Shown: positions 5,201 through 35,766 of the stretch, one piece after another
Numbering within the stretch: the first letter of the stretch is position 1
Layout of the letters: the number at the start of each line of letters is the position of its first letter
DNA from: Anaerococcus nagyae
Lineage (GTDB): Bacteria > Bacillota > Clostridia > Tissierellales > Peptoniphilaceae
Assembly (NCBI RefSeq): GCF_017874535.1
Contig: NZ_JAGGLS010000004.1
Coordinates: 1 to 64,000, forward strand
Reading direction: 5' to 3'
Length of the DNA stretch: 64,000 nucleotides
Position numbers and translations under genes: made by a program
The notes under the pieces: generated by a model
The model's database searches: none
What the model was told of the DNA's origin: nothing
What the model saw: the letters and a program-made list of their open reading frames with translations, nothing else

Positions 5201-5770
5201 ATGAAGGTTATTTTAGTAAGACATGGTCTAAGTGAAGCAAATATAGGAAGATATTATTCACTTGACGATACTATACTCCATAAAGGTGGTTATAGTGTTT
5301 TAGATAAGACACGCAAAAATTTAGAAAAATATGATATAGATCATGTTTATACTTCTAATTTATTGCGTAGCCAGCAAACAGCAGAAAAACTTGGATATAA
5401 AGATTATACAATTGATACTAGACTAAATGAGCTAGATTTTGGGAATTTTAAGGGAAAACTTTTTGAAGATATGAGAAAAGAAGAAGTCCAATTCTTTAAA
5501 GAAAAAGAAAAAGATGTTTTTAATGTTAAATATCCAGGTGGTGAGTCTAGAATTGATATAATAAAAAGGACAAGCGAATTTCTTGACGAACTTGTAGAAA
5601 AAGATGAAAATGCTCTTTGTGTTTCGCACGGTATAGCTATCAAATCAACACTTTTTTGGATATTAAAAGATTTAGATGATTGGGATAGTTTTTGGCTTGA
5701 AAATGGTTCAATTACAGTATTCAATATTAATAATGGTAAAAAATTAATAGAAGCTATAAATATTTTATAA
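5201..5770 (+). CDS. Histidine phosphatase superfamily protein (copy 1)
   Basis: A 189-residue phosphoglycerate-mutase-like phosphatase. The phospho-accepting RHG is in LVRHGLSEAN near the N-terminus, the second catalytic His in CVSHGIAIKS, and the general-acid region in LNELDFG. This branch contains broad-specificity phosphatases such as CobC/PhoE/GpmB-like proteins, so the substrate is open. It is a tandem paralogue of 5926-6495: same length, aligning throughout without obvious gaps, and ending alike in W-x-x-N-G-x-x-T-V-F-x-I. It is flanked by terminators on both sides, so it may form its own transcription unit. Confidence 0.88.
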   Translation: MKVILVRHGLSEANIGRYYSLDDTILHKGGYSVLDKTRKNLEKYDIDHVYTSNLLRSQQTAEKLGYKDYTIDTRLNELDFGNFKGKLFEDMRKEEVQFFKEKEKDVFNVKYPGGESRIDIIKRTSEFLDELVEKDENALCVSHGIAIKSTLFWILKDLDDWDSFWLENGSITVFNINNGKKLIEAINIL

Positions 5771-5783
5771 AATTATAAAAACT

Positions 5784-5900
5784 GGGTTTATTTTGCTCTA
5801 AATTAGGTATATATTATATGTAGATAAGATTAGCGAAACCCTAGCACTTTTTAAGAAGGTGCAAGTAAATTTATAAGCAGGGCTATTGCCTTGTTTTTTT
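5784..5900 (+). promoter_or_regulatory. Candidate attenuator leader of the phosphatase-sbcD operon
   Basis: Several pairings are visible. GGGTTT (5784-5789) pairs with AAACCC (5836-5841). GCACTT (5844-5849) pairs with AAGGTGC (5856-5862). A terminator hairpin closes the leader at 5876-5900. CCCTAGC (5839-5845) can alternatively pair with GCAGGG (5877-5882), the 5' arm of the terminator, with one bulged A. Mutually exclusive terminator and antiterminator pairings are typical of riboswitches and attenuators. I do not recognise a known class, and the pairing was done by eye. Confidence 0.35.
5876..5900 (+). terminator. Rho-independent terminator before phosphatase copy 2
   Basis: AAGCAGGGC pairs with GCCTTGTTT around a TATT loop, followed by a T7 tract. 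It sits 25 bp before the next start codon, so it either ends the copy 1 transcript or attenuates the downstream operon. Confidence 0.85.
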
Positions 5901-5925
5901 ATGGAAAATATATAAGGAGATTTAG

Positions 5926-6495
5926 ATGAAAATTATTTTAGTTAGACATGGTGTAAGTGCGGCAAATATTACAAAACAAGATTCAGCAAGTGATGTTTTT
6001 AATAACAAAAGTGGCTTTAATGTACTTCTTAAAACTCGTCGTAGCTTAGAAAAATTTAATATTGACCATGTTTATTCTTCAAGTCTTAAAGAAGCAAAAC
6101 AAACTGCAGATATGCTTGGATTTAAAGATTATACAGTTGATGAGAGACTTGATGAATTAGATCTTGGACCATATAAGGGTGAATTATATGAACAATTTCA
6201 AAGCAAGTATGCAGAGTTTTTGGACCAACATACAGATGATGCTGCAAGTATTAAATTTCCTGGAGATGAGAGTAGAGAAGATCTTATAAAAAGAACTAGT
6301 GAATTTTTGGATGAACTAGTCGAAAAGGGAGAAGATGCACTTTGTGTAAGCCATAATCTTACAATAAGAGCAGCTTTATTTTGGATACTTGAAGATACAA
6401 AAAACTTTGATAATTTCTGGATTGAAAATGGAGCTGTGACAGTTTTCGATATCAAAGATGGTAAAAAACTTATAGAAAGTATTAACGTGTTATGA
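5926..6495 (+). CDS. Histidine phosphatase superfamily protein (copy 2)
   Basis: A 189-residue paralogue of the preceding phosphatase with RHG in LVRHGVSAAN, LDELDLG for the general-acid region and the second catalytic His in CVSHNLTIRA. The ATG follows AAGGAG. Its stop overlaps the start of the SbcD-like gene (ATGA at 6492-6495), so this copy belongs to the nuclease operon and copy 1 does not. The family removes phosphate from small metabolites or proteins. The exact substrate is not predictable from what I can see. Confidence 0.88.
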   Translation: MKIILVRHGVSAANITKQDSASDVFNNKSGFNVLLKTRRSLEKFNIDHVYSSSLKEAKQTADMLGFKDYTVDERLDELDLGPYKGELYEQFQSKYAEFLDQHTDDAASIKFPGDESREDLIKRTSEFLDELVEKGEDALCVSHNLTIRAALFWILEDTKNFDNFWIENGAVTVFDIKDGKKLIESINVL

Positions 6496-7502
6496 GATTT
6501 ATCCACCTTGCTGATGTGCATTTGGCGGATAATTCAACTTTTGATAATTCATTAGGACATATAATTAGAGAAAATACCTGGAAGTCCTTTGAACAAATTT
6601 TTATAAATAACAAAGATACAGACTTTGCTTTAATTGCAGGAGACCTTTTTGAAAGGTCTTTTTTCTCATCTAAGGATTTCAAAAATCTTTTTAGAATTTT
6701 TGAAGATTATGGTAAAGATATCTACTATGTTACAGGAAATCATGATTATTTTGATGAGTTTAATACTATTTTTTTAAATAATAAGCCAAATAATCTTCAT
6801 GTTTTTACTGAAGATAACTTATCACTTTTTGAAAAAGATGGAATTAGAGTCTATGGACTTTCCTATAAAGATAGGATATATAAGAAAGATTTTAATTATG
6901 ATATAAGTTTAGATAAGGATTTCTTTAATATACTATTAGCTCATGGAGATCTTTCTTTAAATAAAACAAATTATTTGGACTTAGATGCAAATAAGATTAA
7001 TCAAATAGGTTTTGACTATGTAGCTTTAGGTCATATTCATAAGGCATCAAATATTTATAATATATATTATTCAGGAAGTATAGAACCACATGATTTTTCA
7101 GATACTTATGATTATGGATATATTCTTTATGAAAATGGTCTAGTTTCTCAAATTGATTCATCACTTATGAAGTTTAATTCCATAGATATAAATGCTAAAG
7201 AATTTGATAATATTGATGAGATTATTAATAATATCAATGCATCTTTAACAGATAAAGTTAACTTTGTAAGACTTAACCTTGAATCTAATGATGATTTAAA
7301 TATTGATAAAATAAAGAAAAGTATAAATGCTTCCTACACATCTATAAGACTAAGTTATAGGGAAAATTTTGGTAATATGGCAAAACTTTATCCAAACTCT
7401 TTATTGTCAAAATTTGAGAATAAGTTCAAAGATGATGTTGATCCAACAAAAAGTAGAGCTAGAGAAGTTGGTATAGAGGCGATCTTAAGGAGTAAGAAAT
7501 GA
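6492..7502 (+). CDS. SbcD/YhaO-like DNA repair metallophosphoesterase
   Basis: A 336-residue calcineurin-like phosphoesterase, the nuclease half of an SbcCD/Mre11-Rad50-like pair. Metal-binding motifs appear in order: D-V-H in HLADVHLAD, GDLFE, GNHDYF, LLAHGDLS and LGHIHK. The C-terminal third resembles the capping domain of YhaO. It overlaps the gene before it (ATGA) and the ATPase after it (ATGA at 7499-7502), which implies coupled synthesis of a complex. It probably processes double-strand ends or hairpins. Whether it is SbcD proper or YhaO cannot be settled without alignment; the membrane segment in its partner favours YhaO/YhaN. Confidence 0.85.
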   Translation: MRFIHLADVHLADNSTFDNSLGHIIRENTWKSFEQIFINNKDTDFALIAGDLFERSFFSSKDFKNLFRIFEDYGKDIYYVTGNHDYFDEFNTIFLNNKPNNLHVFTEDNLSLFEKDGIRVYGLSYKDRIYKKDFNYDISLDKDFFNILLAHGDLSLNKTNYLDLDANKINQIGFDYVALGHIHKASNIYNIYYSGSIEPHDFSDTYDYGYILYENGLVSQIDSSLMKFNSIDINAKEFDNIDEIINNINASLTDKVNFVRLNLESNDDLNIDKIKKSINASYTSIRLSYRENFGNMAKLYPNSLLSKFENKFKDDVDPTKSRAREVGIEAILRSKK

Positions 7503-17351: not shown

Positions 17352-19022
17352 ATGGATACTAAAGTATATTTAAAAGGAAAATCAAAAAATGCTTATGAAT
17401 TTTTTGGAGCTCATAAAAAGGACATTGGATATATATTTAGACTTTTTGCTCCAAATGCAAGTAAGGTTGAAATAATTGGAGATTTTAATGATTGGCAAGA
17501 ACAGTCGCTAAGAAAATACCCTACAGGAGTTTTTTCCCTTACTATAAAAAATGCAAAAGCAAATGATAGATACAAATATGTGGTTTATGATTCTAATGGT
17601 AATACTGTTAAAAAATTAGATCCATTTTCTAGATCAATACTAGTAGATGAAAATTGTAGCTTAGTTAGTGATGATACTTATGAATTTGAAAATAATAAGG
17701 TAAATAAAGATGCACTTAATATATACCAAGTACACTTAGGATTATTACTAAAAGATAAGAGTAAATCTATTAAAGAGCATTATGAAGATTTAATTTATCA
17801 TGCTAAAGACAACAACTTCACCCATATATCATTAATGCCCATTACAGAATATAAGAATTATAAATCTATGGGCTATTCGAGCATAGGATTATTTGCCTTA
17901 AGTGATCGCTATGGAAACATAAATATTTTTAAAGAATTTATAGACAAGTGCCATCAAGAAAATATTGGATTAATTTTAGAACTTGATTTAGGCGAATTTG
18001 ATCCTGATCCTTATTATTTAGCTGATTTTGATTCTACTAGATTATATGATTACGATTATAATGACATTAGATATAATTACTATGGATCTATGAACTTTGA
18101 TTTGTCAAAAAATGCTAGTAAATCTTATTTATTGTCGGTGGTAAATTATTGGATCAAAGAATTTAATATTGATGGTATATGTATTTCTAATATAGAGAAT
18201 ATAATTTACTGGCAAGGTGATAAAAATAGAGGAGTAAATTCTGCAGGTGAGATTTTATTAAGGGAAATTATTGAACTTATAAGAAGTAAAAAAAGCTTAT
18301 CTATAGCAAGTTACAATGGTATATATGATCTAGATTTTGATTTTGACTATATCTTTGATAATTCTATGAGAAGTCTTATAAGAATTTTCCAAAAGAAACC
18401 ATATGACAGAAATAATTATAAAAGTGATATATATAAGTTAATTAATAAAAATAATTCTGATAGAATCTTAGGTTTTTCATATATTGATTCCTATTTAGAA
18501 GAAGCTAGTCTAGCCATGAAAATGCACGGTGATATGCATAAATTTGACCAATTAAAGAGCTTATTAACCTTAATATATACACTTAATTCTAGAAAAATGA
18601 TTTTTATGGGAGATGAGTTTGCTGATTTAAGAACATTTTCTATTTACAATTCTCTTAACTTCAAAAAATTAGATAAGGGTCAGGAATATTTTAATAAATT
18701 CTTTAAAGATTTAACTAGGACTTATATAAATAATGAAGCTCTATCCAATAAAAGTTCTATTACACAGATTCTTGATATAGGCGGCTATAGTATTTATGCT
18801 TATATTAGAGAATTTAATGATAAGAGAATGCTTATAATTGTAAATTTAACTGATGTAGAATATTTTATAGTGAGTCCTTATAATTTAGTAGAATTAATTA
18901 ATAGTCATAATTTAAATTATGGGGAAAGTGGAAATATAAATGGTAGTATTGAAAAAAATGAGAAAATACGAATAGAAGCTTATGGAGCAGTGATATTCCA
19001 AATTAAAAAGAAGCTGTTGTAA
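17352..19022 (+). CDS. GlgB-like GH13 protein lacking catalytic acids
   Basis: A 556-residue homologue of glycogen branching enzyme: an N-terminal CBM48-like domain (F-R-L-F-A-P-N-A-S-K-V-E), then a GH13 barrel (Y-Q-V-H-L-G, M-G-Y-S-S-I-G-L-F-A-L-S-D-R-Y-G) and the late block F-M-G-D-E-F. The GlgB nucleophile motif D-G-x-R-x-D-A-V reads D-G-I-C-I-S-N-I, so the Asp is Ser279. The acid/base block A-E-E-S reads A-S-Y-N (Glu to Ser320). S-H-D-E reads S-Y-I-D (Asp to Ile378). All three catalytic acids are therefore gone, yet the frame is intact. It is shorter than GlgB (about 630 residues). A glucan-binding or regulatory role is inferred; it should not be annotated as active GlgB. Confidence 0.75.
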   Translation: MDTKVYLKGKSKNAYEFFGAHKKDIGYIFRLFAPNASKVEIIGDFNDWQEQSLRKYPTGVFSLTIKNAKANDRYKYVVYDSNGNTVKKLDPFSRSILVDENCSLVSDDTYEFENNKVNKDALNIYQVHLGLLLKDKSKSIKEHYEDLIYHAKDNNFTHISLMPITEYKNYKSMGYSSIGLFALSDRYGNINIFKEFIDKCHQENIGLILELDLGEFDPDPYYLADFDSTRLYDYDYNDIRYNYYGSMNFDLSKNASKSYLLSVVNYWIKEFNIDGICISNIENIIYWQGDKNRGVNSAGEILLREIIELIRSKKSLSIASYNGIYDLDFDFDYIFDNSMRSLIRIFQKKPYDRNNYKSDIYKLINKNNSDRILGFSYIDSYLEEASLAMKMHGDMHKFDQLKSLLTLIYTLNSRKMIFMGDEFADLRTFSIYNSLNFKKLDKGQEYFNKFFKDLTRTYINNEALSNKSSITQILDIGGYSIYAYIREFNDKRMLIIVNLTDVEYFIVSPYNLVELINSHNLNYGESGNINGSIEKNEKIRIEAYGAVIFQIKKKLL

Positions 19023-23947: not shown

Positions 23948-25342
23948 ATGTATGGTAAAGAGTTTTATGAAAATAGATTTAATAAAACCATAGGTAGATT
24001 AGAGACAGTAAAAAATGACTATTTTAGATTAAGATATCATATAAGTCAAAAAATAGGCTGGTTGAATGATCCCAATGGTCTTTGTCAATTTGATGGAGAA
24101 TACCATATTTATTTTCAATACGATCCATTTGATGCAAGTGGAAAAAATATAATTTGGGGACATATTACAACAGCCGACTTTATAAATTATACTTATGAAC
24201 AGCCTTTTATATTTGCTGATTCAAATTTAGATAAAGATGGTGCCTATTCAGGCTCAGCCGTTATAAAAGATAATAAAATAAACTTTTTTTACACTGGAAA
24301 TGTAAAGTATAATGGCGCTTATGATTATATCTACAAAGGAAGAGAACACAACACTATAAAAATAGTATCAGATAATGGATATAATTTTGACGAAAAAGAG
24401 CTGTTATTATCCAATAAAGATTATCCGAATAATATGAGCTGTCATGTGCGAGATCCCAAGATATATGAAGAAAATGGTTTATATTATATGTTTTTAGGAG
24501 CAAGAAGTAATGATAATAATGGATTAGTTCTAGTATATAAATCAAGTGATTTGAGTACATTTACCTATCATATGCAGATAACAACGTCCTATGATTTTGG
24601 TTATATGTGGGAGTGCCCTGATTATTTTGATATTAATGGTAAAAAATACCTACTAGTTTGTCCACAAGGTCTAAAAAGTGAAGAATTTAACTATCAAAAT
24701 GTATACCAATCTGGGTATTTTCCAATTGAAATTGATTTAGAAAGTAAAAAATATAATCTAGGAACATTTGCTGAGCTAGATTATGGTTTCGATTTTTATG
24801 CACCTCAAACATTTGAAGATAAAAAAGGTAGAAGAATTCTGATAGGATGGATGGGGATGCCTGATGCTAGTTATAGCAATCCTACAATAGAGAACTATTG
24901 GCAACATTGTTTGACAATTCCGAGAGAGATTAAAGCTAGGGATAATAAGATTTTACAATCACCTATTGAAGAATTAAAAGCTCTAAGAAAAGACAATGTT
25001 GATATTATAAAATATCACTCTTATGAAGAAAATATTTTTGAATTCATATCTTATAATTTAGAGAAAGAATTTGAAATATATTTAAGAAAAGATGTAAAAT
25101 TAATTTATAATAATGATATACTTCATCTATATATAGATGAATCAGGTTATGGAAGAAATGATAGAAAAGTAATAATAAAAAGTATGAATAATTTGAGGAT
25201 ATTTTCTGACTCATCTTCAATAGAAATATTTGTAAATGATGGAGAATATGTATTATCTTCTAGGATCTATGCTAAAGAAAAATACTTTAGTTCATCAATA
25301 AAAGGAAATTTATATAAATTAAAATCTATAAATTGGAACTAA
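23948..25342 (+). CDS. GH32 sucrose-6-phosphate hydrolase / invertase
   Basis: A 464-residue glycoside hydrolase. The nucleophile Asp is in WLNDPNG, the transition-state Asp in VRDPKIY and the acid/base Glu in WECPDYF. The beta-propeller is followed by a shorter C-terminal sandwich. It lacks a signal peptide, so it acts in the cytoplasm, most likely on phosphorylated sucrose from a PTS not in this window. No strong RBS precedes the ATG. It stands alone between a terminator and a gene-free stretch. Confidence 0.92.
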   Translation: MYGKEFYENRFNKTIGRLETVKNDYFRLRYHISQKIGWLNDPNGLCQFDGEYHIYFQYDPFDASGKNIIWGHITTADFINYTYEQPFIFADSNLDKDGAYSGSAVIKDNKINFFYTGNVKYNGAYDYIYKGREHNTIKIVSDNGYNFDEKELLLSNKDYPNNMSCHVRDPKIYEENGLYYMFLGARSNDNNGLVLVYKSSDLSTFTYHMQITTSYDFGYMWECPDYFDINGKKYLLVCPQGLKSEEFNYQNVYQSGYFPIEIDLESKKYNLGTFAELDYGFDFYAPQTFEDKKGRRILIGWMGMPDASYSNPTIENYWQHCLTIPREIKARDNKILQSPIEELKALRKDNVDIIKYHSYEENIFEFISYNLEKEFEIYLRKDVKLIYNNDILHLYIDESGYGRNDRKVIIKSMNNLRIFSDSSSIEIFVNDGEYVLSSRIYAKEKYFSSSIKGNLYKLKSINWN

Positions 25343-26155: not shown

Positions 26156-26185
26156 TTAAGAAAAGGTTTTTTAGTTCTTTATAAT
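26156..26185 (+). promoter_or_regulatory. Probable promoter of the glycogen operon
   Basis: A perfect TATAAT (26180-26185) with a weak TTAAGA (26156-26161) 18 bp upstream lies about 60 bp before the glgC ATG. Confidence 0.45.
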
Positions 26186-26246
26186 GTTTTTTTCGGGTAT
26201 CTATATATTAATTAGAATATATGACTTTATTTGTGAAGGAGGGCAC

Positions 26247-27380
26247 ATGAGAAACTCAAATAAAACAGCTGCTATGCTTTTGGCTGGCGGACAAGGTTCT
26301 AGACTTAAAGCACTTACGAAGGACATGGCAAAACCGGTTGTTCCTTTTGGCGGGAAATATAGAATAATAGACTTCGCTTTAAGTAATTCAACCAATTCAG
26401 AGATTAAAGATATAGGTGTTTTAACTCAATATAAACCACAACTTTTAAATAAGCACTTAGGGATTGGTTCTGCTTGGGATTATGACAGAAATAATGGTGG
26501 ACTTCGAATTCTTTCACCTTATTATACAGAAGAAGGTGGTAAATGGTTTGAAGGTACTGCAAGCGCTATATATGAAAATATAAATTATTTAGATCAAGTT
26601 AATCCAGAATATGTTTTAATATTATCTGGAGATCATATATATAAGATGGATTATAGGAAACTTCTTGATGTTCATAAGAAAAAAGGTGCAGATGCAACTA
26701 TTGCTGTAATGGAAGTTGATTGGGATGAAGCAAGTAGATTTGGAATTATGAATACTGATAATGATGGTAGAATAACTGAGTTTGAAGAAAAACCAGAAGA
26801 ACCAAAATCAAATCTTGCGTCCATGGGAATTTATGTATTTAATTGGAAAATTTTAAGAAAAGCTCTTATAGAAGATAATAAAGATCCTAACTCTACAAAT
26901 GATTTTGGGCATGATATTATTCCAAAAATGCTAGAAGATGGTGAACCAATTTATGTTTATAAATTCGATGGATATTGGAAAGATGTAGGTACAGTAAAAA
27001 GCTTCTGGCAAGCAAATCTTGATTTGATTGATCCTAATAATGAACTTGATATATATGATGAGGATTGGAAAATTTATACAACAAGCCTTAATTTGCCACC
27101 GCATAGAATTGGCCCAAATGGTGAACTTAAAGATGCTTTGGTAAATGAAGCTTGTGATATTGATGGTAGAGTTGAAAATTCCGTATTATCCTCAAATGTC
27201 AAAGTGGAGAAAGGTGCAGAAGTTTACAATTCTGTTTTGCTTAATGGGACAAAGGTTAAATCAGGGGTCAAGATTTATAATTGTGTGGTAGCTGAGGATA
27301 TAGAGATAACAGAAAATATTGGAGATGCCGAAACTGATAAGGTATATCTTGTAAGTTCTGAAGGAATAGGAGAGGAATAA
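26247..27380 (+). CDS. glgC: Glucose-1-phosphate adenylyltransferase
   Basis: A 377-residue ADP-glucose pyrophosphorylase. The nucleotide loop is [14 protein letters not shown], then [15 protein letters not shown]. Sugar-phosphate residues are in F-E-E-K-P and Y-W-K-D-V-G-T. A C-terminal left-handed beta-helix follows. The start is ATG 26247 with GAAGGAGGG; an upstream in-frame ATG at 26184 overlaps the promoter. It makes ADP-glucose for GlgA and likely pairs with GlgD in a heterotetramer. Confidence 0.96.
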
Positions 27381-27381
27381 A

Positions 27382-28509
27382 ATGGATAATGTTTTAGCTT
27401 TAGTGTATAGCTCTGAGTTTAACCCAGATAGCTACGGTGAATTATGTAAGGTAAGACCTGACTATATGCTCCCATTTGCTGGTAGATATAGAATTATAGA
27501 TTTTACATTATCAAATTTATCTAATTATGACATAAGTAATGTTATACTTTTTGCAGGAAATAAGATGAGGTCTACTCTAGATCACATAGGAAATGGTAGA
27601 AGTTGGGAGCTTAATAGACGCCATGGTGGTCTAACAATAACTCCTCCAGATTTTACAGATACCAATCCTTCAGAAGTTACCACTTACTATGATTCTATGA
27701 TGGCATTTGAAGAAAGTAATGCAGAATATGTATTTATAACAAATCCTATGTATATTAATAAAGTTGATATCAGTGATGCAAAAGAAAAAATGAAATCTTC
27801 AAATGCTGACGCCTTGATATTTACTAAAAAAACTACGGACGAAAATGGATTTTATTTAAATCGAAAAATTATAATTTCAGATGAGAATGATAAGCCAATA
27901 AATCCAGGCGTCAATCTTGGACTAAATGATGAGTTTGATTTATTTGCAGGATCTATACTTATTAAAAGGGAAGTATTTATAAAAGTCTTAAGATATGCTA
28001 TTGAGGTCAATAATATTTCATCAATATTAGCAGCACTATTTGAATTTCCTGGAGATATAAATAAAGATTTTTATAGAATTAACAATCAGCTTGAGATTAT
28101 TATGGATATATATTCTTTCTTTGATGCAAACTTCAAACTTTTAGATAAAAAGTATTATGATAAGCTATTTTATAAGGATGGTTTGGTTTATACAAAGTCA
28201 AAAGATGAACCATCTACTTCCTATACAAAAGATAGTAAAGTTAAAAATTCCTTAGTTGCTAATGGATCAATTATAGAAGGCGAAATTGAAAACTCTATTA
28301 TCTTTAGAGGTGTTACAATTAAAAAGGGAGCTGTCATCAAAAACTCTATAATATTTCAAGATTCTGTTATAGGTGAAGATTCTATAATAAATTATGTAAT
28401 TACAGATAAAGGCACCCAAATTGGTAAAAATGTTAAGTTATTTGGTAATAGGACTCACCCATATGCGTCAAGTAAAAATGAAGTATTAGAAACCAGGAGC
28501 TATGAATGA
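27382..28509 (+). CDS. glgD: GlgD, non-catalytic ADP-glucose pyrophosphorylase subunit
   Basis: A 375-residue paralogue of GlgC, one base after its stop. It keeps L-P-F-A-G-R-Y-R-I-I-D-F-T-L-S-N and the beta-helix. The N-terminal G-G-x-G-x-R-L nucleotide loop is replaced by S-S-E-F-N-P-D-S-Y. This matches known Firmicutes GlgD, which is inactive alone but modulates GlgC. Overlap with glgA (ATGA) keeps synthesis coordinated. Confidence 0.93.
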   Translation: MDNVLALVYSSEFNPDSYGELCKVRPDYMLPFAGRYRIIDFTLSNLSNYDISNVILFAGNKMRSTLDHIGNGRSWELNRRHGGLTITPPDFTDTNPSEVTTYYDSMMAFEESNAEYVFITNPMYINKVDISDAKEKMKSSNADALIFTKKTTDENGFYLNRKIIISDENDKPINPGVNLGLNDEFDLFAGSILIKREVFIKVLRYAIEVNNISSILAALFEFPGDINKDFYRINNQLEIIMDIYSFFDANFKLLDKKYYDKLFYKDGLVYTKSKDEPSTSYTKDSKVKNSLVANGSIIEGEIENSIIFRGVTIKKGAVIKNSIIFQDSVIGEDSIINYVITDKGTQIGKNVKLFGNRTHPYASSKNEVLETRSYE

Positions 28510-29936
28510 ACATATTATATCTAACTAGTGAAGCAGTACCTTTTATAAAGACTGGAGGACTTGCAGATGTTGCAGGTTCTCTTCCTCAAGAACTTATTAA
28601 AGATGGATTGGATGTAAGGGTAGTCTTGCCTTTATATGCATCTATAGATGAAACTTATCGTTCAAAAATGGAAAAGATAACAGAGTTTTATGTTGATCTT
28701 GACTGGAAACATCAATATGCTGGAGTTTATAAATTAGATTATAAAGGTGTAGCCTTCTATTTTATAGATAATATGGAATATTTTGATAGGGATTATCCTT
28801 ATGGTTTTGATGATGATGCTGAAAGATTTATTTTCTTTTCAAAGGCTTGCACTTTACTACCAAAGGAAATTGAATTTAAGCCTGATATTATCCACTCTAA
28901 CGATTGGCATACAGCTTTAGTTAATGTATTTGTAAATGACTTTAGGCATGGAGACAGCTATTATGATGATATCAGAACTTTATTTACTATACATAATTTA
29001 AAATACCAAGGTGTATTTGACTCTGATAATATGAAGATCGCTGGTCTAGATGGTGGCTATTTTAATGAAAATGATTTAAAATTTTATGATGCTATAAACT
29101 TTATGAAAGGCGGTATAATTCATGCAACAGCTGTAAATACGGTTTCAGAAAATTATGCACGAGAAATCCATTATCCATTTTATGGAGAAGGTTTAGATGG
29201 TGTTATTAGACAATATGATTATAAATTATCGGGAATTGTAAATGGAATTGATTATAAGGAATGGAATCCAGCTACGGATAAGTTAATCGACCAAAACTAT
29301 GATGTTAATTCCCTAGACAAGAAAGTTTTAAATAAGCTTGCTATCCAAGAGATGTATGGATTACCACAAAGAGAAGATGTTCCAATGATTGGTCTTGTTT
29401 CTAGACTTAATGAAATGAAAGGTCTTGATTTAGTTCGCTATATATTAGATGAATTACTACAGGAAGATATTCAATTTGTAGTGCTTGGTACAGGCGATTA
29501 TACCTATGAGGAGATGTTTAAATACTTTGCTTGGAAGTATCCTGAGAAAATGGCGAGTAGAATTTATTTTGGTGGAGCAGAGGCTCATAAAATTTATGCA
29601 TCAAGTGATTTCTATTTGATGCCATCCATTTCAGAACCTTGCGGTATAAGTCAATTAATAGCAATGAGATACGGATCACTTCCTATAGTACGTGAGGCAG
29701 GAGGATTAAAAGATACCGTTATTCCTTACAACGAATATACGGGGGAAGGGACAGGATATTCTTTCTCAAATATTAATGCTCATGAATTACTATTTGCTAT
29801 AAAAAATGCAACTAATATTTATAAAAATGATAAAAATTCTCATAATAGATTAATAGAAAATGCTATGAACCAAGATATTGATTGGAAGATGTCTGCAGAT
29901 AAGTATTTGAAACTATATGAAGAAATTAGAGCATAA
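28506..29936 (+). CDS. glgA: Glycogen synthase (ADP-glucose)
   Basis: A 476-residue GT5 enzyme. The ADP-glucose motif KTGGLADVAGSLP is at the N-terminus, H-N-D-W-H-T region present (S-N-D-W-H-T), and the C-terminal block reads EPCGISQLIAMRYGSLPIV. All expected catalytic features are present, unlike the phosphorylase-like gene that follows. It elongates alpha-1,4-glucan. Confidence 0.96.
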   Translation: MNILYLTSEAVPFIKTGGLADVAGSLPQELIKDGLDVRVVLPLYASIDETYRSKMEKITEFYVDLDWKHQYAGVYKLDYKGVAFYFIDNMEYFDRDYPYGFDDDAERFIFFSKACTLLPKEIEFKPDIIHSNDWHTALVNVFVNDFRHGDSYYDDIRTLFTIHNLKYQGVFDSDNMKIAGLDGGYFNENDLKFYDAINFMKGGIIHATAVNTVSENYAREIHYPFYGEGLDGVIRQYDYKLSGIVNGIDYKEWNPATDKLIDQNYDVNSLDKKVLNKLAIQEMYGLPQREDVPMIGLVSRLNEMKGLDLVRYILDELLQEDIQFVVLGTGDYTYEEMFKYFAWKYPEKMASRIYFGGAEAHKIYASSDFYLMPSISEPCGISQLIAMRYGSLPIVREAGGLKDTVIPYNEYTGEGTGYSFSNINAHELLFAIKNATNIYKNDKNSHNRLIENAMNQDIDWKMSADKYLKLYEEIRA

Positions 29937-29939
29937 TTT

Positions 29940-32195
29940 ATGATTACAAGCAAAGATATAATTATAGAAAGAATACAAAATTATTTGTATTCTTTTTATG
30001 CTAAAGATATAAAGACAGCTAGAAAAAACGAAATCTACGATTGTTTATGCAGATATCTTATGGAAATAATAGGTACTAGATGGGTTGATACAAAAAGACA
30101 TAAAGAAGATTATGAAGTTTATATCCTTAGCTTTGAATATCTGCCAGGAAGATTTTTAGAAAATATTATTTATAAGCTGGATATTGAACAGGAGATTAGA
30201 CAGGCTCTTAGTGAAATTGGCTTTGACTATGAAACCATAATATCATATGATCCTGAGCCTGACCTTGGTATAGGTGATATGGGTATAGGATCAAGTTTCT
30301 TGATAAATGCCCTAACAAATCAAAAAATTAAAACAACAGCCTATGCCTTAAGGTATGAATCTGGAAATTTTAAACAGATTATTGAAGGTGGCAAACAAGT
30401 TGAATCTTCTTATTCTTGGTTAAGATATGGAACAAATTGGGAACATAAAAAATCTTTTACAAATATTATTAATATATATGGAAGAGATCATAAAACTGTA
30501 ACCTATGATATGCCTGTCGTATCAAAAGATGCAAGCTTTATAAATACTCTTAGACTATTTAAGTCTGACTCGACTTTAAGTGTAAATATTAACGAGTTTT
30601 CAAAGGGGGATTTATTAAATGCTTATGATGATTATATAAATAATTCATCTATAACAGAATTCTTATATGTAGATGATTCTACTTATGAAGGTAAGATGCT
30701 TAGACTTAAACAAGAATATTTTTTCTCAGCATCTGCGATGAGAGATTTCGTTCGTCGCTTTATTTTATACTATGATGACATTAGAACTATAAACAAAAAG
30801 ACAGATGTAGTTATAAACGATATTCATCCTACTTTAGCGCTGATAGAATTTATAAGGATTTTAACTGATGAGCATAATTTTACTATCAAAGAGGCAATAG
30901 CTTATACTAGGGAAATATTCCATCATATTGTATTTTCTACAACAGATGATAGCTTTGAAAGATATCCTATAGATGAAATTAGAAAAATGAATAAAGATAT
31001 TTTTGAAACTATGGTTAAGATTCAAAATGAATTAGCTAAGGAAGATGGTTTTACACCTTTTATAGTAGATGGTTTAGTATTGTTTAAATACATTAATATG
31101 GCCCTCAGCAAAGATTATATTTTCTTATCAAAAATTCTAAGTGAAGATAAAAAAAATTCGAAAAATGTTTGTTATAAAAATATTGGTACAGATAGATTTC
31201 TTTATTCAAAAAGTGCCAATATATATCTTGATAAAACTTTATTATCTTATTATATAGATATAACTGATCCTAAATCTTTAAGAAATATAGAAGAATTAAA
31301 AAATAATATAGATTTAATAAATGATTTGGAATTAATTAAATACCAAAATAAACTTAAATTAATCAAATTTTTGGGAGAAGGTAGAGGAAAAATAAATCCG
31401 CACTCTATATTTGATATGCAACTATCTATTATGCATGAGAGCAAAAGACAAATACTTAATGCTATGGCAATTGCCTATCAGTTTTACTATCTAAGAGATA
31501 ATGCTAATGCTTATTATGTTCCTAGGACATATGTATTTTCAGGCAAAGCAAATGAAGGCTATTTTATAGCTAAAGAAACTATAAAATTTATCTTTGCTCT
31601 TAAAAATTTAATAGAATCAGATAAGATTATAAGAGAAAAAATCAAAATTATATTTGTAGAAGATCTTTCTGTTGGAGATTTAAGATATTTGTATCCGGCT
31701 GCAGATGTTTATAGTAATCTTAATCATCCCTTATTAGATAATCAAAATTTTAATACATTAAATGCGTTATTCAATATGTCAAATTTAGTAACAAGCAGAG
31801 GCGGTATAACAGAAAATGTAGATAAAACAAATGATTTTTATTTTATGGGGGATTCATATCTTAAAATAAAATCTATAAAAGAAAACAATTTCTATAATGC
31901 TAATGATTTTATTTATCAAAACGAAATAGTAAAATATACCACAGAAAGACTTTTAAAGGAATCATATGAGCAATTTCCTTATGACTTTAAAATAATCTAT
32001 AATGAGATCCTCATGTATAATGATTCTTTTAATGTATTCTATGACCTAAAATCACTAATTGATGCCCGCGAAAAAATATCTAAAGATTACTTAGATAAAG
32101 AAAAATGGGTTAAGCAGCAAATTAGTAATATTATTTGGGCCAATGAATTTGATATGGATTACACTGAGAAGAGGAAATTAAATTTTGATAAGTAA
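29940..32195 (+). CDS. GlgP-like GT35 protein lacking the PLP lysine
   Basis: A 751-residue relative of glycogen phosphorylase. Recognisable blocks are D-L-G-I-G-D-M-G-I-G (for L-G-N-G-G-L-G), A-L-R-Y-E-S-G-N-F-K-Q, I-N-D-I-H-P-T-L-A, and T-Y-V-F-S-G-K-A-N-E-G-Y. The conserved V-K-R-I-H-E-Y-K-R reads L-S-I-M-H-E-S-K-R (residues 495-503). The cofactor block G-T-x-N-M-K-F reads N-T-L-N-A-L-F, putting Leu610 at the PLP lysine. Without that lysine normal phosphorolysis is not expected. The frame is intact and sits in a conserved operon place, 3 bp after glgA, so it is probably a functional pseudoenzyme. Alignment is by eye. Confidence 0.75.
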   Translation: MITSKDIIIERIQNYLYSFYAKDIKTARKNEIYDCLCRYLMEIIGTRWVDTKRHKEDYEVYILSFEYLPGRFLENIIYKLDIEQEIRQALSEIGFDYETIISYDPEPDLGIGDMGIGSSFLINALTNQKIKTTAYALRYESGNFKQIIEGGKQVESSYSWLRYGTNWEHKKSFTNIINIYGRDHKTVTYDMPVVSKDASFINTLRLFKSDSTLSVNINEFSKGDLLNAYDDYINNSSITEFLYVDDSTYEGKMLRLKQEYFFSASAMRDFVRRFILYYDDIRTINKKTDVVINDIHPTLALIEFIRILTDEHNFTIKEAIAYTREIFHHIVFSTTDDSFERYPIDEIRKMNKDIFETMVKIQNELAKEDGFTPFIVDGLVLFKYINMALSKDYIFLSKILSEDKKNSKNVCYKNIGTDRFLYSKSANIYLDKTLLSYYIDITDPKSLRNIEELKNNIDLINDLELIKYQNKLKLIKFLGEGRGKINPHSIFDMQLSIMHESKRQILNAMAIAYQFYYLRDNANAYYVPRTYVFSGKANEGYFIAKETIKFIFALKNLIESDKIIREKIKIIFVEDLSVGDLRYLYPAADVYSNLNHPLLDNQNFNTLNALFNMSNLVTSRGGITENVDKTNDFYFMGDSYLKIKSIKENNFYNANDFIYQNEIVKYTTERLLKESYEQFPYDFKIIYNEILMYNDSFNVFYDLKSLIDAREKISKDYLDKEKWVKQQISNIIWANEFDMDYTEKRKLNFDK

Positions 32196-34068
32196 TATTG
32201 ATCAATTAACCTATGAAGATATAAAAGATTATGAGCTTGGTGCGATTTATTCTAAGCAAAAAACAATGTTTAGAGTGTTTGCACCAGAACGAGAGGTTAA
32301 ATTATCTTTATCTAAGGATTATAGCAATCCTAGAAAAGAAATATATGCTATGCAACAAAATAAAATAGGTATTTGGGAATTAAGTTTAAAAGGTGACTAT
32401 GAAGGCTACTATTATTCTTATATAGTCGAGGATAAATATGAAGTGACAGACCCATACTCATTTACAAGCTCTATAAATAGCATGTATTCTGTAGTAATAG
32501 ATATGGACAAGACTAATCCTGAAGATTTTAAGTCTAGTAAGATTCCAATTATAGTAGAAGATGAAGCTATAATTTATGAGATGAATGTCAAAAATTATAC
32601 GGCAGATGAGACAAGCGGTGTGAGAAATCGTGGGAAATATCTAGGAATTAGTGAAAAAAATACAAGATATAATGGATTTAAAACAGGTCTAGATAATCTA
32701 GAAGAACTTGGAATAACTCATGTTCAGCTTTTACCTATATATGATTTTATATCAGTTGATGAATCAAATGAGAGATTTTTTGATGACGATAATTACAATT
32801 GGGGATACGATCCAGAACTATACTTTGCACCAGAAGGTTCTTACTCGACTGATCCTAATAATCCACTTTCACGTGTAAGAGAATTAAAGAAGATGATTTT
32901 AGCCATTCATCAAAAAAATATAGCTGTTATTATGGATGTTGTTTATAATCATACCTTCAAATCTTATGACTCTAACCTAAATACTCTAGCTCCTAATTAT
33001 TACTATAGGATGAATAATGATGGTACTTTTTCCAATGGCTCTGGAGTAGGCAATGAGCTAGCTAGTGAAAGGCCTTTTGCAAGAAAGCTAATAATTGATT
33101 CTCTAAAACATTGGGTTAATGAATACAAAATAGATGGTTTTAGATTTGATCTTATGGCTTTAGTGGATGTTGATACCATAAAGCTTGCTTTAAAAGAATT
33201 AAGAAAAATAAACCCTAACTTAATAATCTATGGAGAACCTTGGATGGCATTAGATACTACACTTGCTTATGATAAGCATACAGTTAAAGGTAGCCAAAGG
33301 TCTAATGGATTTGGTGTTTTTAATGATGTTTACAGAGATGCAATAAAGGGAGACACTGATTCATATGGCATTGGGTATGTACAAGGTAATTATAGTTTAA
33401 AAAACCTCATTGAAGAGGGAATAGCAGGATCAATCAATTATGATAAGAGTAGGAATGGATTTTGCGATTATGCTTCAGAGACTATAAATTACTTTAATTG
33501 TCATGATAATTTGATTTTATATGATAAGTTACAAGTATCTATAAATGATTTGGATAAAATTAATGACTATGTAAAACTTGCTATGGGATTAATAATGTTA
33601 TCCTATGGTAAGCCCTTTATTTATGAAGGAAATGAGTTTAATCATAGTAAGCACAATGATAGAAATTCATACAATTCACCACTTTTTATAAATGCTATTA
33701 ACTGGAAAGAAAAACAAGATAATCAAAACATATTTAATTATAGTAAGGATATAATATCTTTAAGAAAAGAATTAAAAGTTTTTAACGAATCTGATCCAGA
33801 TAAAATTAGAGAAAATCTTACTTTTATAGATGGCTTAGATAATTCGATTATAGCTTATAAAATTAAAACTGATAAGACTTATATATTAGTAGCAATTAAT
33901 GCTGGCAATAGTACTTTAAATATTAGTAAAGAGAAGATATCAGTTTTTTTAGAATGTAAAAATCTAGAAATTAAGAGAATTTTCTCTAAAGAGGGTAAAG
34001 ATAATAGTAAAGTAAAGACTATAAGCTTAGAAGAACGTTCGGTAAATGTTTATAAAATAGGAGAATAA
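32185..34068 (+). CDS. pulA: Type I pullulanase (glycogen debranching)
   Basis: A 627-residue GH13_14 enzyme hydrolysing alpha-1,6 branches. The type I signature YNWGYDP is present, as are the nucleophile in D-G-F-R-F-D-L-M, the acid/base Glu in I-Y-G-E-P-W and C-H-D-N for the third Asp. An N-terminal CBM48 precedes the barrel. No signal peptide, so it is cytoplasmic. The start is TTG 32185 inside the phosphorylase-like gene, after GAGG. Its intact catalytic set contrasts with the two degenerate glucan genes in this window. Confidence 0.92.
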   Translation: MISNIDQLTYEDIKDYELGAIYSKQKTMFRVFAPEREVKLSLSKDYSNPRKEIYAMQQNKIGIWELSLKGDYEGYYYSYIVEDKYEVTDPYSFTSSINSMYSVVIDMDKTNPEDFKSSKIPIIVEDEAIIYEMNVKNYTADETSGVRNRGKYLGISEKNTRYNGFKTGLDNLEELGITHVQLLPIYDFISVDESNERFFDDDNYNWGYDPELYFAPEGSYSTDPNNPLSRVRELKKMILAIHQKNIAVIMDVVYNHTFKSYDSNLNTLAPNYYYRMNNDGTFSNGSGVGNELASERPFARKLIIDSLKHWVNEYKIDGFRFDLMALVDVDTIKLALKELRKINPNLIIYGEPWMALDTTLAYDKHTVKGSQRSNGFGVFNDVYRDAIKGDTDSYGIGYVQGNYSLKNLIEEGIAGSINYDKSRNGFCDYASETINYFNCHDNLILYDKLQVSINDLDKINDYVKLAMGLIMLSYGKPFIYEGNEFNHSKHNDRNSYNSPLFINAINWKEKQDNQNIFNYSKDIISLRKELKVFNESDPDKIRENLTFIDGLDNSIIAYKIKTDKTYILVAINAGNSTLNISKEKISVFLECKNLEIKRIFSKEGKDNSKVKTISLEERSVNVYKIGE

Positions 34069-34071
34069 AAA

Positions 34072-35766
34072 ATGGATTATAAAAAAAATTATGAATTGTG
34101 GTATAACAATGATAAATTTGATGAAGATACTCATAAAGAATTAGAAGAAATAAGAGGCAATGATGAGGAGATTAAAGATAGATTTTATTCATCTTTAGAG
34201 TTTGGTACAGCTGGTTTACGTGGAAAGCTTGGAGCTGGAACTAATAGAATGAATGATTATATGGTAGCTCAAGCTAGTCAAGGATTTGCAGATACTATTG
34301 CTGAAATGGGTGAACAAGCAAAAAAAGCTGGAGTTGCTATAGCTTATGATGTACGTCATAAATCAGAGGACTTTGCTCATATAGCTGCAGAAGTTTTTGC
34401 TGCAAATGGAATAAAGGTTTATATACATAGAGAAATCCAACCGACTCCAGTTTTATCTTATACAGTAAGACATTTAAAAACCAGTGCTGGGGTAATGGTT
34501 ACAGCAAGTCATAATCCAATGGAATATAATGGTTATAAGGCTTACAATTCTGAGGGAAGTCAAATTTTGGATCAAACAGCTAATAAAATTTTAGGACATA
34601 TAGAAGAGCATCCAGACTTTTTTGAAATACCACGTGTAGATTTTGAAGAAGGATTAAAAGATGGAATTATAGAATGGGTACCTAATAGTCTAATCGAAAA
34701 TTATGTGAAAGAAATCTTAGCTTGTACTATAAATGATAATGATATAGATAAAGATATTAATATTGTTTACACTCCACTAAATGGTACTGGAAACAAACTT
34801 GTAAGACGTATATTAGATGAGAGGGGATTTAAAAATATTCATGTTGTAGCTGAGCAAGAAAACCCAGATCCAAACTTCACAACTGTAGGTTATCCTAACC
34901 CAGAAATGCCAGAAGCTTTTGAATATTCGGAAAAACTTGGTAAAGAGGTTGGAGCAGATTTGTTACTTGCAACAGACCCTGATGCGGATAGATGTGCTGT
35001 TGAAATTAAAGACGATAATGGTCAATATGTATTTCTAACAGGAAACAAAATAGGATCTCTACTCACAAATTACATCCTATCAGCGCTTAAGGAGAATGGT
35101 GAATTGCCAGAAAATGCTGCTGTAGTAAAATCATTGGTAACAACAGATCTCATAGCTCCTATTTGTAAAAAATATGGCGTAAAAAAATACGATGTGTTGA
35201 CAGGATTTAAAAATATCTATGCAGTAGCAAATGAACTTGAAAAAAGTGGTGAAGGTAAATTTGTATTTGGTTTTGAGGAGTCTATTGGTTATAACTATAA
35301 GGACTTTGTTAGAGATAAAGATTCTGTAAATTCTGCAATGATGATATCAGAAATGGCAGCTTATTATAAAAAACAAGGAAAATCGCTTCTTGATGTTTTA
35401 GATGAAATATATAAAGAACATGGATACTATGCAAATGATGTAATATCTATAACTCTTCAAGGATTAGATGGCAAGGAAAGAATTGGAAGAATTATGGAAT
35501 ATGTTCGTAACAATCCACTAGAAGGTCTTGCTGGTCTTTGTACAGAAAAAATAGTTGATTATAAGCTAGATGAAACAGGCCTTCCAAAATCTAATGTTCT
35601 TAAATATTATTTTGATGACAATTCTTGGCTAGCACTAAGACCATCTGGTACTGAACCAAAGATCAAAATATATGTAAATGCAGTAGATACTAGTGAAAAA
35701 GCAGCAGAAGACAAAAAAGATCAATTAGTTAAACAAATGCAAGAAACAATTGAGTCTGTAGAGTAA
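34072..35766 (+). CDS. pgcA: Phosphoglucomutase (alpha-phosphohexomutase)
   Basis: A 564-residue enzyme interconverting glucose-1- and glucose-6-phosphate. The phosphoserine loop is TASHNP, the metal loop DPDADR, the sugar loop G-F-E-E-S-I-G and the phosphate loop R-P-S-G-T-E-P-K. The length fits the PgcA/PGM2-like branch. It ends the glycogen operon, supplying or draining glucose-1-phosphate, and is followed by a terminator. Confidence 0.94.
   Translation: MDYKKNYELWYNNDKFDEDTHKELEEIRGNDEEIKDRFYSSLEFGTAGLRGKLGAGTNRMNDYMVAQASQGFADTIAEMGEQAKKAGVAIAYDVRHKSEDFAHIAAEVFAANGIKVYIHREIQPTPVLSYTVRHLKTSAGVMVTASHNPMEYNGYKAYNSEGSQILDQTANKILGHIEEHPDFFEIPRVDFEEGLKDGIIEWVPNSLIENYVKEILACTINDNDIDKDINIVYTPLNGTGNKLVRRILDERGFKNIHVVAEQENPDPNFTTVGYPNPEMPEAFEYSEKLGKEVGADLLLATDPDADRCAVEIKDDNGQYVFLTGNKIGSLLTNYILSALKENGELPENAAVVKSLVTTDLIAPICKKYGVKKYDVLTGFKNIYAVANELEKSGEGKFVFGFEESIGYNYKDFVRDKDSVNSAMMISEMAAYYKKQGKSLLDVLDEIYKEHGYYANDVISITLQGLDGKERIGRIMEYVRNNPLEGLAGLCTEKIVDYKLDETGLPKSNVLKYYFDDNSWLALRPSGTEPKIKIYVNAVDTSEKAAEDKKDQLVKQMQETIESVE

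Follow-up and report, generated by a model that had tools for sequence, protein, structure and literature searches.

The window analyzed here (64,000 nucleotides of Anaerococcus nagyae, contig NZ_JAGGLS010000004.1, positions 1 to 64,000 of the forward strand) contains a glycogen operon with the gene order glgC, glgD, glgA, a glycogen phosphorylase homologue, pulA, and pgm. The phosphorylase homologue has lost the lysine for the cofactor pyridoxal 5'-phosphate (PLP) together with most of its contacts to phosphate, and it is almost certain that it no longer performs phosphorolysis. It is found behind glgA in every Anaerococcus genome surveyed, is under purifying selection, and very probably has a function. 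We propose that it is a pseudo-phosphorylase of an old glgBCDAP operon that has been kept as a non-catalytic partner or regulatory subunit of glycogen metabolism, a reading to which we give roughly an even chance. For brevity, the operon copy of Anaerococcus is called dead GlgP in the following; L, G, and C numbers are our handles for loci, genomes, and contigs, respectively.

Loss of the cofactor lysine and the catalytic residues

The gene and the two altered motifs are located as follows.

29940..32195, + strand: PLP-less, presumably non-catalytic GT35 phosphorylase homologue of 751 amino acids (profile matches, alignment, and predicted fold)
31422..31451, + strand: LSIMHESKRQ (residues 495-504) at the site of VKRIHEYKRQ, with S and I at the K568 and R569 positions
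31752..31772, + strand: NTLNALF (residues 605-611) at the site of the PLP block, where the canonical copy has GTGNMKF

The open reading frame (ORF) starts with ATG and contains no internal stop. Its product matches PF00343 in two stretches with 347 bits (cut-off 27), is homologous to GT35 enzymes over the whole chain, and finds glycogen phosphorylases as its sequence matches in the PDB, while it misses the cut-off of the NCBIfam profile TIGR02093 (369.9 versus 552.9 bits).

For a residue-by-residue comparison, the 31 Anaerococcus operon copies were aligned with 32 canonical rows (21 from Anaerococcus and 11 others), to whose columns we assign rabbit phosphorylase numbering and residue roles as we take them to be; the truncated copy L036 is gapped in the C-terminal block. 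K568 (now S, T, A, or E), R569 (I, M, L, N, or V), and Y573 (S, A, or G; S in the window protein) are lost in all 31 operon copies, the H377 column holds F or I (F in the window protein), and the W491 column holds Y. N484 is also changed in the window protein, and G135 has become D. The PLP lysine itself (K680) is replaced by N, A, or H, and T676-G677-N678 is lost as well, in each of the 30 copies that have the region, G677 being H, D, N, or E. R569 and E672 are altered in every copy with those positions. Retained throughout (31/31) are E88, D339, H341, H571, and K574. All 32 canonical rows hold K568, R569, Y573, H377, G677, and K680.

Because two alignments differ, the PLP block can be placed only to within one or two residues. 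The loss of the lysine is independent of this placement: the block aligned to TAGKEASGTGNMKFMLNGAPTLG is free of lysine in all 29 near-full-length copies (the incomplete L036 and L063 being excluded from the 31). Among K568, R569, K574, and T676-G677, which we take, in part, to be the contacts to phosphate and to the PLP phosphate, only K574 persists (31/31). According to the available part of PMC11046441, glycogen phosphorylase requires PLP, and three lysines coordinate the PLP phosphate in the E. coli phosphorylase MalP. Judged from these residues, the loss of phosphorolysis in the Anaerococcus operon copies is near certain.

An earlier reading of the window, made from its letters without database searches (the sequence-only reading), had pointed out the NTLNALF block without a cofactor lysine and the S-I pair in place of K-R in the VKRIHEYKR block. 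Both are borne out, the pair being residues 496-497 (31425-31430) within LSIMHESKR. The two motifs were right but understated the extent of the loss, as Y573, H377, W491, N484, G135, and TGN are changed too.

Retention and selection

The homologue lies behind glgA in all 31 Anaerococcus genomes (30 of the same genus plus the window genome), by which a sequencing error or the oddity of a single strain is ruled out. Unbroken ORFs of 735-780 amino acids are present in 29 of the 31. The copy in L036 (G003, 5732-7438) is cut at 568 amino acids and the adjoining pulA is split too, which may reflect decay or an assembly error, and the copy in L063 comprises 701 amino acids with its N-terminus in another frame.

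The ratio of nonsynonymous to synonymous substitution rates (dN/dS) was calculated by the Nei-Gojobori method for the 14 closest species pairs, picked by the synonymous divergence (dS) of glgA; some of these pairs share genomes, and four include G003 with its cut copy. For dead GlgP, dN/dS ranges from 0.054 to 0.148 (median 0.087). The values are 0.059-0.134 for pulA (13 pairs, median 0.094), 0.030-0.075 for canonical GlgP (nine pairs, median 0.058), and 0.022-0.061 for glgA (14 pairs, median 0.042). Dead GlgP is under purifying selection and evolves faster than canonical GlgP. As a group, the Anaerococcus copies show neither the broken frames nor the relaxed selection of a pseudogene, and we consider it highly probable that the protein has a function.

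The second, canonical GlgP

The sequence-only reading had advised looking for a second, canonical GlgP, and one is indeed found at G000:C1:13408-15498 of the window genome (795 amino acids, motifs intact, 1061 bits against TIGR02093). It is 44 residues longer than the window homologue, and its gene adjoins a 4-alpha-glucanotransferase gene rather than the glycogen operon. A canonical-type GlgP is encoded elsewhere in 30 of the 31 Anaerococcus genomes, and its motifs were read in 21. Of the 21 other family genomes that carry an operon copy, 20 likewise have one (as fragments in G102), called by length and score only. In G002, the canonical GlgP (G002:C247:156057-158191) is split into two frames, and the operon copy is whole.

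The co-occurrence of genes singles out no partner, because glgA accompanies nearly every phosphorylase match: it is present in all 52 family genomes with an operon copy and in 71 of the 72 family genomes with any phosphorylase match (the exception being G090), and it scores over the cut-off in 81 of the 130 family genomes.

The former active site and the predicted fold

Column entropies were compared between 29 dead and 21 canonical rows and against 5000 random column sets, which ignore the likeness of neighbouring columns, so that the counts given here are no strict probabilities. The old active site (31 columns) has a mean entropy of 0.71 bits in the dead group versus 1.26 bits overall, and only two of the 5000 random sets were as low. 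The N-terminal cap and second helix are similarly constrained (0.82 bits; 3/5000). Between the dead and canonical groups, 71 columns are fixed at different residues and 93 at the same residue. The least variable windows of the dead group (19 dead and 19 canonical rows from the same genomes) include YFIAKETIKFIFALK, PRTYVFSGKANEGYF, STYEGKMLRLKQEYF, and the N-terminal IIERIQNYLYSFYAK, and D600, N601, F604, N612, and N615 are invariant within the former PLP block of the dead copies. Since the active-site columns vary little and 71 columns have switched to other fixed residues, the old cleft looks rebuilt and not merely abandoned, as far as can be judged from the alignment.

A first model of the window protein (30 rows, one genus) had a predicted local distance difference test score (pLDDT) of 71.9 and resembled phosphorylases with a template modelling score (TMq) of about 0.80; its old active-site loops were below a pLDDT of 50, which was resolved with a wider alignment. 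The AlphaFold model from a 68-row alignment that includes catalytic relatives reaches a pLDDT of 91.7 and a predicted template modelling score of 0.91, the former PLP block included. A Foldseek search with this model gave TMq values of 0.90-0.92 in the 50 rows shown, and the best match among solved phosphorylases is 2c4m (Z 44.3, 742 residues, 2.4 A). The model backs a GT35 fold, not a function, and agrees in this respect with the PLP-free phosphorylase fold that the sequence-only reading had put forward.

Origin and graded loss in the family

Of 130 genomes surveyed in the family, 52 hold an operon copy, namely the 31 of Anaerococcus and 21 others (L186-L204, L064, and L065); one further copy (L066) belongs to another family of the same order. 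The loss is graded among the relatives. L188 and L189 keep K568, R569, K574, and the PLP lysine and have LST at TGN, L188 also carrying Y at H377 and scoring over the TIGR02093 cut-off. The lysine is kept and K568 lost in L190 and L191, the latter also without R569; in L196 and L197, the lysine is present, with D at R569 and R at K574. Arginine occupies the PLP lysine column in L193 and L195. In L186, L187, L192, L194, L201, and L202, the surrounding block is lost, which leaves the single-column alignment unsure, and L203 and L204 are split ORFs. Across the 24 rows outside Anaerococcus (L066 included, split ORFs counted twice), the lysine is present in 12, and G677 in none of the 22 with a letter there. 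Judging from their motifs, L188, L189, and L190, with the lysine and LST or MST at TGN, may be altered but active enzymes. Genus g50, with K in the PLP lysine column of L199 and N in that of L198 and L200, is a place to time the loss of the lysine.

A class-wide search of 391 genomes found, among the matches listed, intact-motif copies in the operon slot of four relatives from other families (L206, L207, L210, and L211); more distant dead copies may exist. In a quick, midpoint-rooted tree with long branches, from which L065, L066, L201, and L202 were left out as very long, 25 family operon copies form one side of a branch with a support of 100 in the Shimodaira-Hasegawa-like approximate likelihood ratio test (SH-aLRT), L206 and L207 branch first on the other side, and the local canonical GlgP copies group with other canonical enzymes. 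An earlier tree that included those four and preceded the addition of L206-L211 placed 29 operon copies on one side (SH-aLRT 99). Given this separation, and with caution for long branches, a recent origin of the operon copy by duplication of the local canonical GlgP is ruled out. It seems that the presence of another GlgP released the operon enzyme from its catalytic duty, as a canonical-type GlgP is encoded elsewhere in nearly all genomes concerned.

Proposed role and alternatives

Dead GlgP has what would be expected of a partner subunit: it is a homologue of an active enzyme in the same genome, has lost the catalytic residues, and is kept by selection. PLP binding and phosphorolysis of the operon GlgP would have been lost in the family while a separately inherited, intact GlgP carried on catalysis. 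Dead GlgP would be made together with GlgA and PulA and would retain the GT-B fold and its N-terminal surface, the side at which phosphorylase dimers meet according to the accessible text of PMC11046441. Its rebuilt cleft could bind the end of a glucan chain or a small metabolite, and the protein might modulate or position an active partner. The likeliest candidate would be canonical GlgP, through hetero-assembly, with GlgA or PulA on the granule as the next choice; the preference for canonical GlgP is tentative. Glycogen binding, recruitment of the pullulanase, and regulation of synthesis, the roles suggested in the sequence-only reading, may be three of several that the sequence cannot separate.

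Several points weigh against this proposal. The region that we take to be the tower helix and 280s loop is merely average in the dead group (1.23 bits; 2205 of the 5000 random sets as low). A helical insertion is prominent in MalP dimers, as described in the available part of PMC11046441, and should this insertion be the tower, its merely average conservation argues against the classical dimer having been retained. Hetero-assembly with GlgP is disfavoured by this unremarkable region and also by the position of canonical GlgP at another locus; equal dosage is not assured because the canonical gene lies outside the operon. No canonical GlgP was found in G004 (86% complete) and G085 (91% complete), both of which have an operon copy, and ORFs are broken in four of the 52 family operon copies (L036, L063, L203, and L204). 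Among more distant pairs (0.05<dS<1.5), the median dN/dS of dead GlgP is higher (0.288; 63 pairs, without G003), the medians of canonical GlgP and pulA being 0.063 (42 pairs) and 0.216 (55 pairs), respectively; dS is probably saturated at these distances, which can account for the rise but need not, and the conclusion on selection is therefore drawn from the close pairs. The confidence of the structural model is partly borrowed, because its alignment includes catalytic phosphorylases.

One alternative, which we regard as rather unlikely, is that dead GlgP works without contact to canonical GlgP, as a homodimer whose former cleft holds glucan chains and which acts for GlgA and PulA as a scaffold or in granule priming. 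Its operon neighbours are indeed the synthase and the debranching enzyme and not canonical GlgP, the residues E88, D339, H341, H571, and K574, some of which presumably lie on the glucan side, are retained in all 31 copies, and a non-catalytic GlgB homologue of the same genome keeps its CBM48 with a better score than the intact GlgB (57 versus 33 bits). A glucan-holding scaffold fits poorly, however, with the middle region of dead GlgP, which we take to align near the glycogen storage site and which is the most variable of the dead group (2.0 bits, 26 comparable columns), as well as with the loss of N484 and H377, presumably glucose contacts in the catalytic enzyme.

It is less probable still that the GT-B cleft has acquired a new chemistry, for example, that of a PLP-independent transferase or hydrolase using H571, K574, D339, and H341 with the Asn-rich block. 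The available part of PMC11046441 carries the suggestion that GT35 descended from an early NDP-sugar enzyme with this fold. The conservation of the old cleft (0.71 versus 1.26 bits), the 71 switched positions, and the invariant D600, N601, F604, N612, and N615 would suit such an enzyme. Opposed to this is the change of R569 and E672 in all copies in which these positions are present; we take the two residues to be the counterparts of the catalytic Arg and Glu in GT-B synthases.

Very improbable is a weak phosphorylase that binds PLP noncovalently or through another lysine: K574 is retained in all copies, and the related L188 and L189 still possess K568, R569, K574, and the PLP lysine, but the PLP-block lysine is absent from 29/29 copies, K568, R569, and Y573 are lost in 31/31, and T676-G677-N678 is lost in 30/30. 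A functionless, slowly decaying redundant copy, which the graded loss across the family, the broken ORFs in L036, L063, L203, and L204, and the dispensability for catalysis beside a canonical GlgP might suggest, is hardly credible given the 29 of 31 unbroken Anaerococcus ORFs of 735-780 amino acids, a dN/dS far under 1, and a constraint on the most conserved blocks that comes close to that in the live enzyme.

Further non-catalytic paralogues

Another presumably inactive glycogen enzyme is encoded upstream in the window.

17352..19022, + strand: GlgB homologue of 556 amino acids with CBM48 and without the catalytic Asp and Glu (profile match, alignment to intact GlgB)

It scores 277.7 bits against NF008967 (cut-off 577) and was aligned to the intact GlgB of the same genome (L150:5699-7516), with regions I, II, and III of the catalytic motifs named as we take them to be. 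The nucleophile Asp of region II with its Arg and the acid/base Glu of region III are replaced in 31/31 Anaerococcus copies; the His of region I is left in three of the 31, and L180 is a split ORF. The CBM48 scores 57 bits in this dead GlgB versus 33 bits in intact GlgB. All 31 Anaerococcus genomes contain dead GlgB, as does G096 (genus g41), and a GlgB over the cut-off is likewise present in all 31. With a dN/dS of 0.056-0.214 in the same 14 pairs, dead GlgB is held more loosely than dead GlgP. A third GlgB-like protein (L151:6471-8465, 664 amino acids) has its catalytic motifs and scores 255 bits against TIGR01515, which is under the cut-off; 31/31 Anaerococcus genomes have a match in this size class.

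In GlgD, the Asp of the GDH motif of GlgC is Met in 31/31 copies, and its nucleotide loop, in the six forms seen most often (19/31), is unlike that of GlgC. Three glycogen enzymes, GlgC, GlgB, and GlgP, each have a presumably non-catalytic paralogue (GlgD, dead GlgB, and dead GlgP). Dead GlgB, the non-catalytic nature of GlgD, and the graded loss in the family had all escaped the sequence-only reading. It is conceivable, albeit doubtful, that these are live and dead pairs at three steps, with dead GlgP and dead GlgB as regulatory subunits whose former active sites sense glucans or metabolites; the GlgD principle would then extend to branching and phosphorolysis, and the related genera would show the phosphorylase at intermediate stages.

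Relation to known systems and significance

Dead GlgP resembles the GT35 enzymes GlgP and MalP (PF00343) in its whole-length fold and whole-chain homology and differs from them by the missing PLP lysine, the lost phosphate site and PLP block, and a chain shorter by 44 residues. It occupies the same operon slot as the phosphorylase in glgBCDAP-amy-pgm of Lactobacillus acidophilus (PMC4282360, available part). As stated in the part of PMC9093745 available, GlgD has no activity and a modulatory function in some Firmicutes. Like GlgD, encoded in the same operon, dead GlgP is a dead paralogue kept alongside a live relative in glycogen metabolism; unlike GlgD, which pairs with the adjacent GlgC, its live relative is encoded elsewhere, and the pairing is conjectural. 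A further parallel is plant ISA2, a non-catalytic isoamylase paralogue that is conserved by selection and bound by ISA1 in maize (PMC12510319, in part). Both are non-catalytic paralogues of alpha-glucan enzymes under selection; ISA2, however, is of the GH13 class, comes from another kingdom, and has a demonstrated complex.

The short phosphorylases of Streptococcaceae (752 amino acids; the length class of PDB 4l22, presumably one of them, as its length also suggests) are similar in length to the window protein. In contrast to it, the four that were read (L238-L241) keep every active-site motif, and the PLP lysine is present in 30/30 Streptococcaceae copies fetched (39 genomes searched, of which 33 had a match); a short chain is therefore no mark of a dead copy. 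Among open-licence PMC papers, judged by titles and the beginnings of abstracts, neither a PLP-less GT35 protein nor a dead GlgB was found, and the available part of PMC8950772 held nothing relevant. Dead paralogues in alpha-glucan metabolism are a known principle; the PLP-less GT35 clade and dead GlgB are new to the literature covered.

Phosphorylases are textbook PLP enzymes, and a cofactor-free clade under selection separates the role of the fold from that of the cofactor. The operon slot offers a natural series from intact motifs (L206 and L207) through a lysine with a broken phosphate site (L191, L196, and L197) to complete loss (Anaerococcus), with which the sequence of events, loss of catalysis and loss of the cofactor, becomes testable protein by protein. 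Should dead GlgP and dead GlgB prove to be partner subunits, glycogen metabolism in bacteria would possess a layer of control like that of plant starch metabolism, and it would be misleading to annotate such genes from similarity only as encoding a glycogen phosphorylase or a branching enzyme.

The glycogen operon

The other genes of the operon are listed below.

26184..27380, + strand: glgC, catalytic ADP-glucose pyrophosphorylase, first ATG used (profile match, catalytic motifs)
27382..28509, + strand: glgD, non-catalytic GlgC paralogue (TIGR02092, 284.4 bits; cut-off 236.6)
28506..29936, + strand: glgA, glycogen synthase (profile match)
32185..34068, + strand: pulA, type I pullulanase with a TTG start (GH13 catalytic motifs present)
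34072..35766, + strand: pgm, phosphoglucomutase-type gene, last in the operon (profile matches)

The true start of glgC is probably 26247, as suggested by the length of 377 amino acids in many relatives. Three bases separate the stop codon of glgA from the ATG of the phosphorylase homologue, whose 3' end is overlapped by pulA by 11 bases, provided that the TTG start is right. GlgC, GlgA, and PulA keep all catalytic motifs checked, in agreement with the sequence-only reading, which had called the operon otherwise active. When unmatched ORFs of 200 amino acids or less are left aside, the gene directly upstream is glgA at all 53 loci (52 of the family and L066), and the one directly downstream is pulA at 52, the exception (L037) being a contig end. 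Upstream of the operon, the window also contains a gene of the sucrose-6-phosphate hydrolase family (23948-25342; TIGR01322, 415.8 bits), a homologue of which likewise precedes the operon in L037, L051, and L053.

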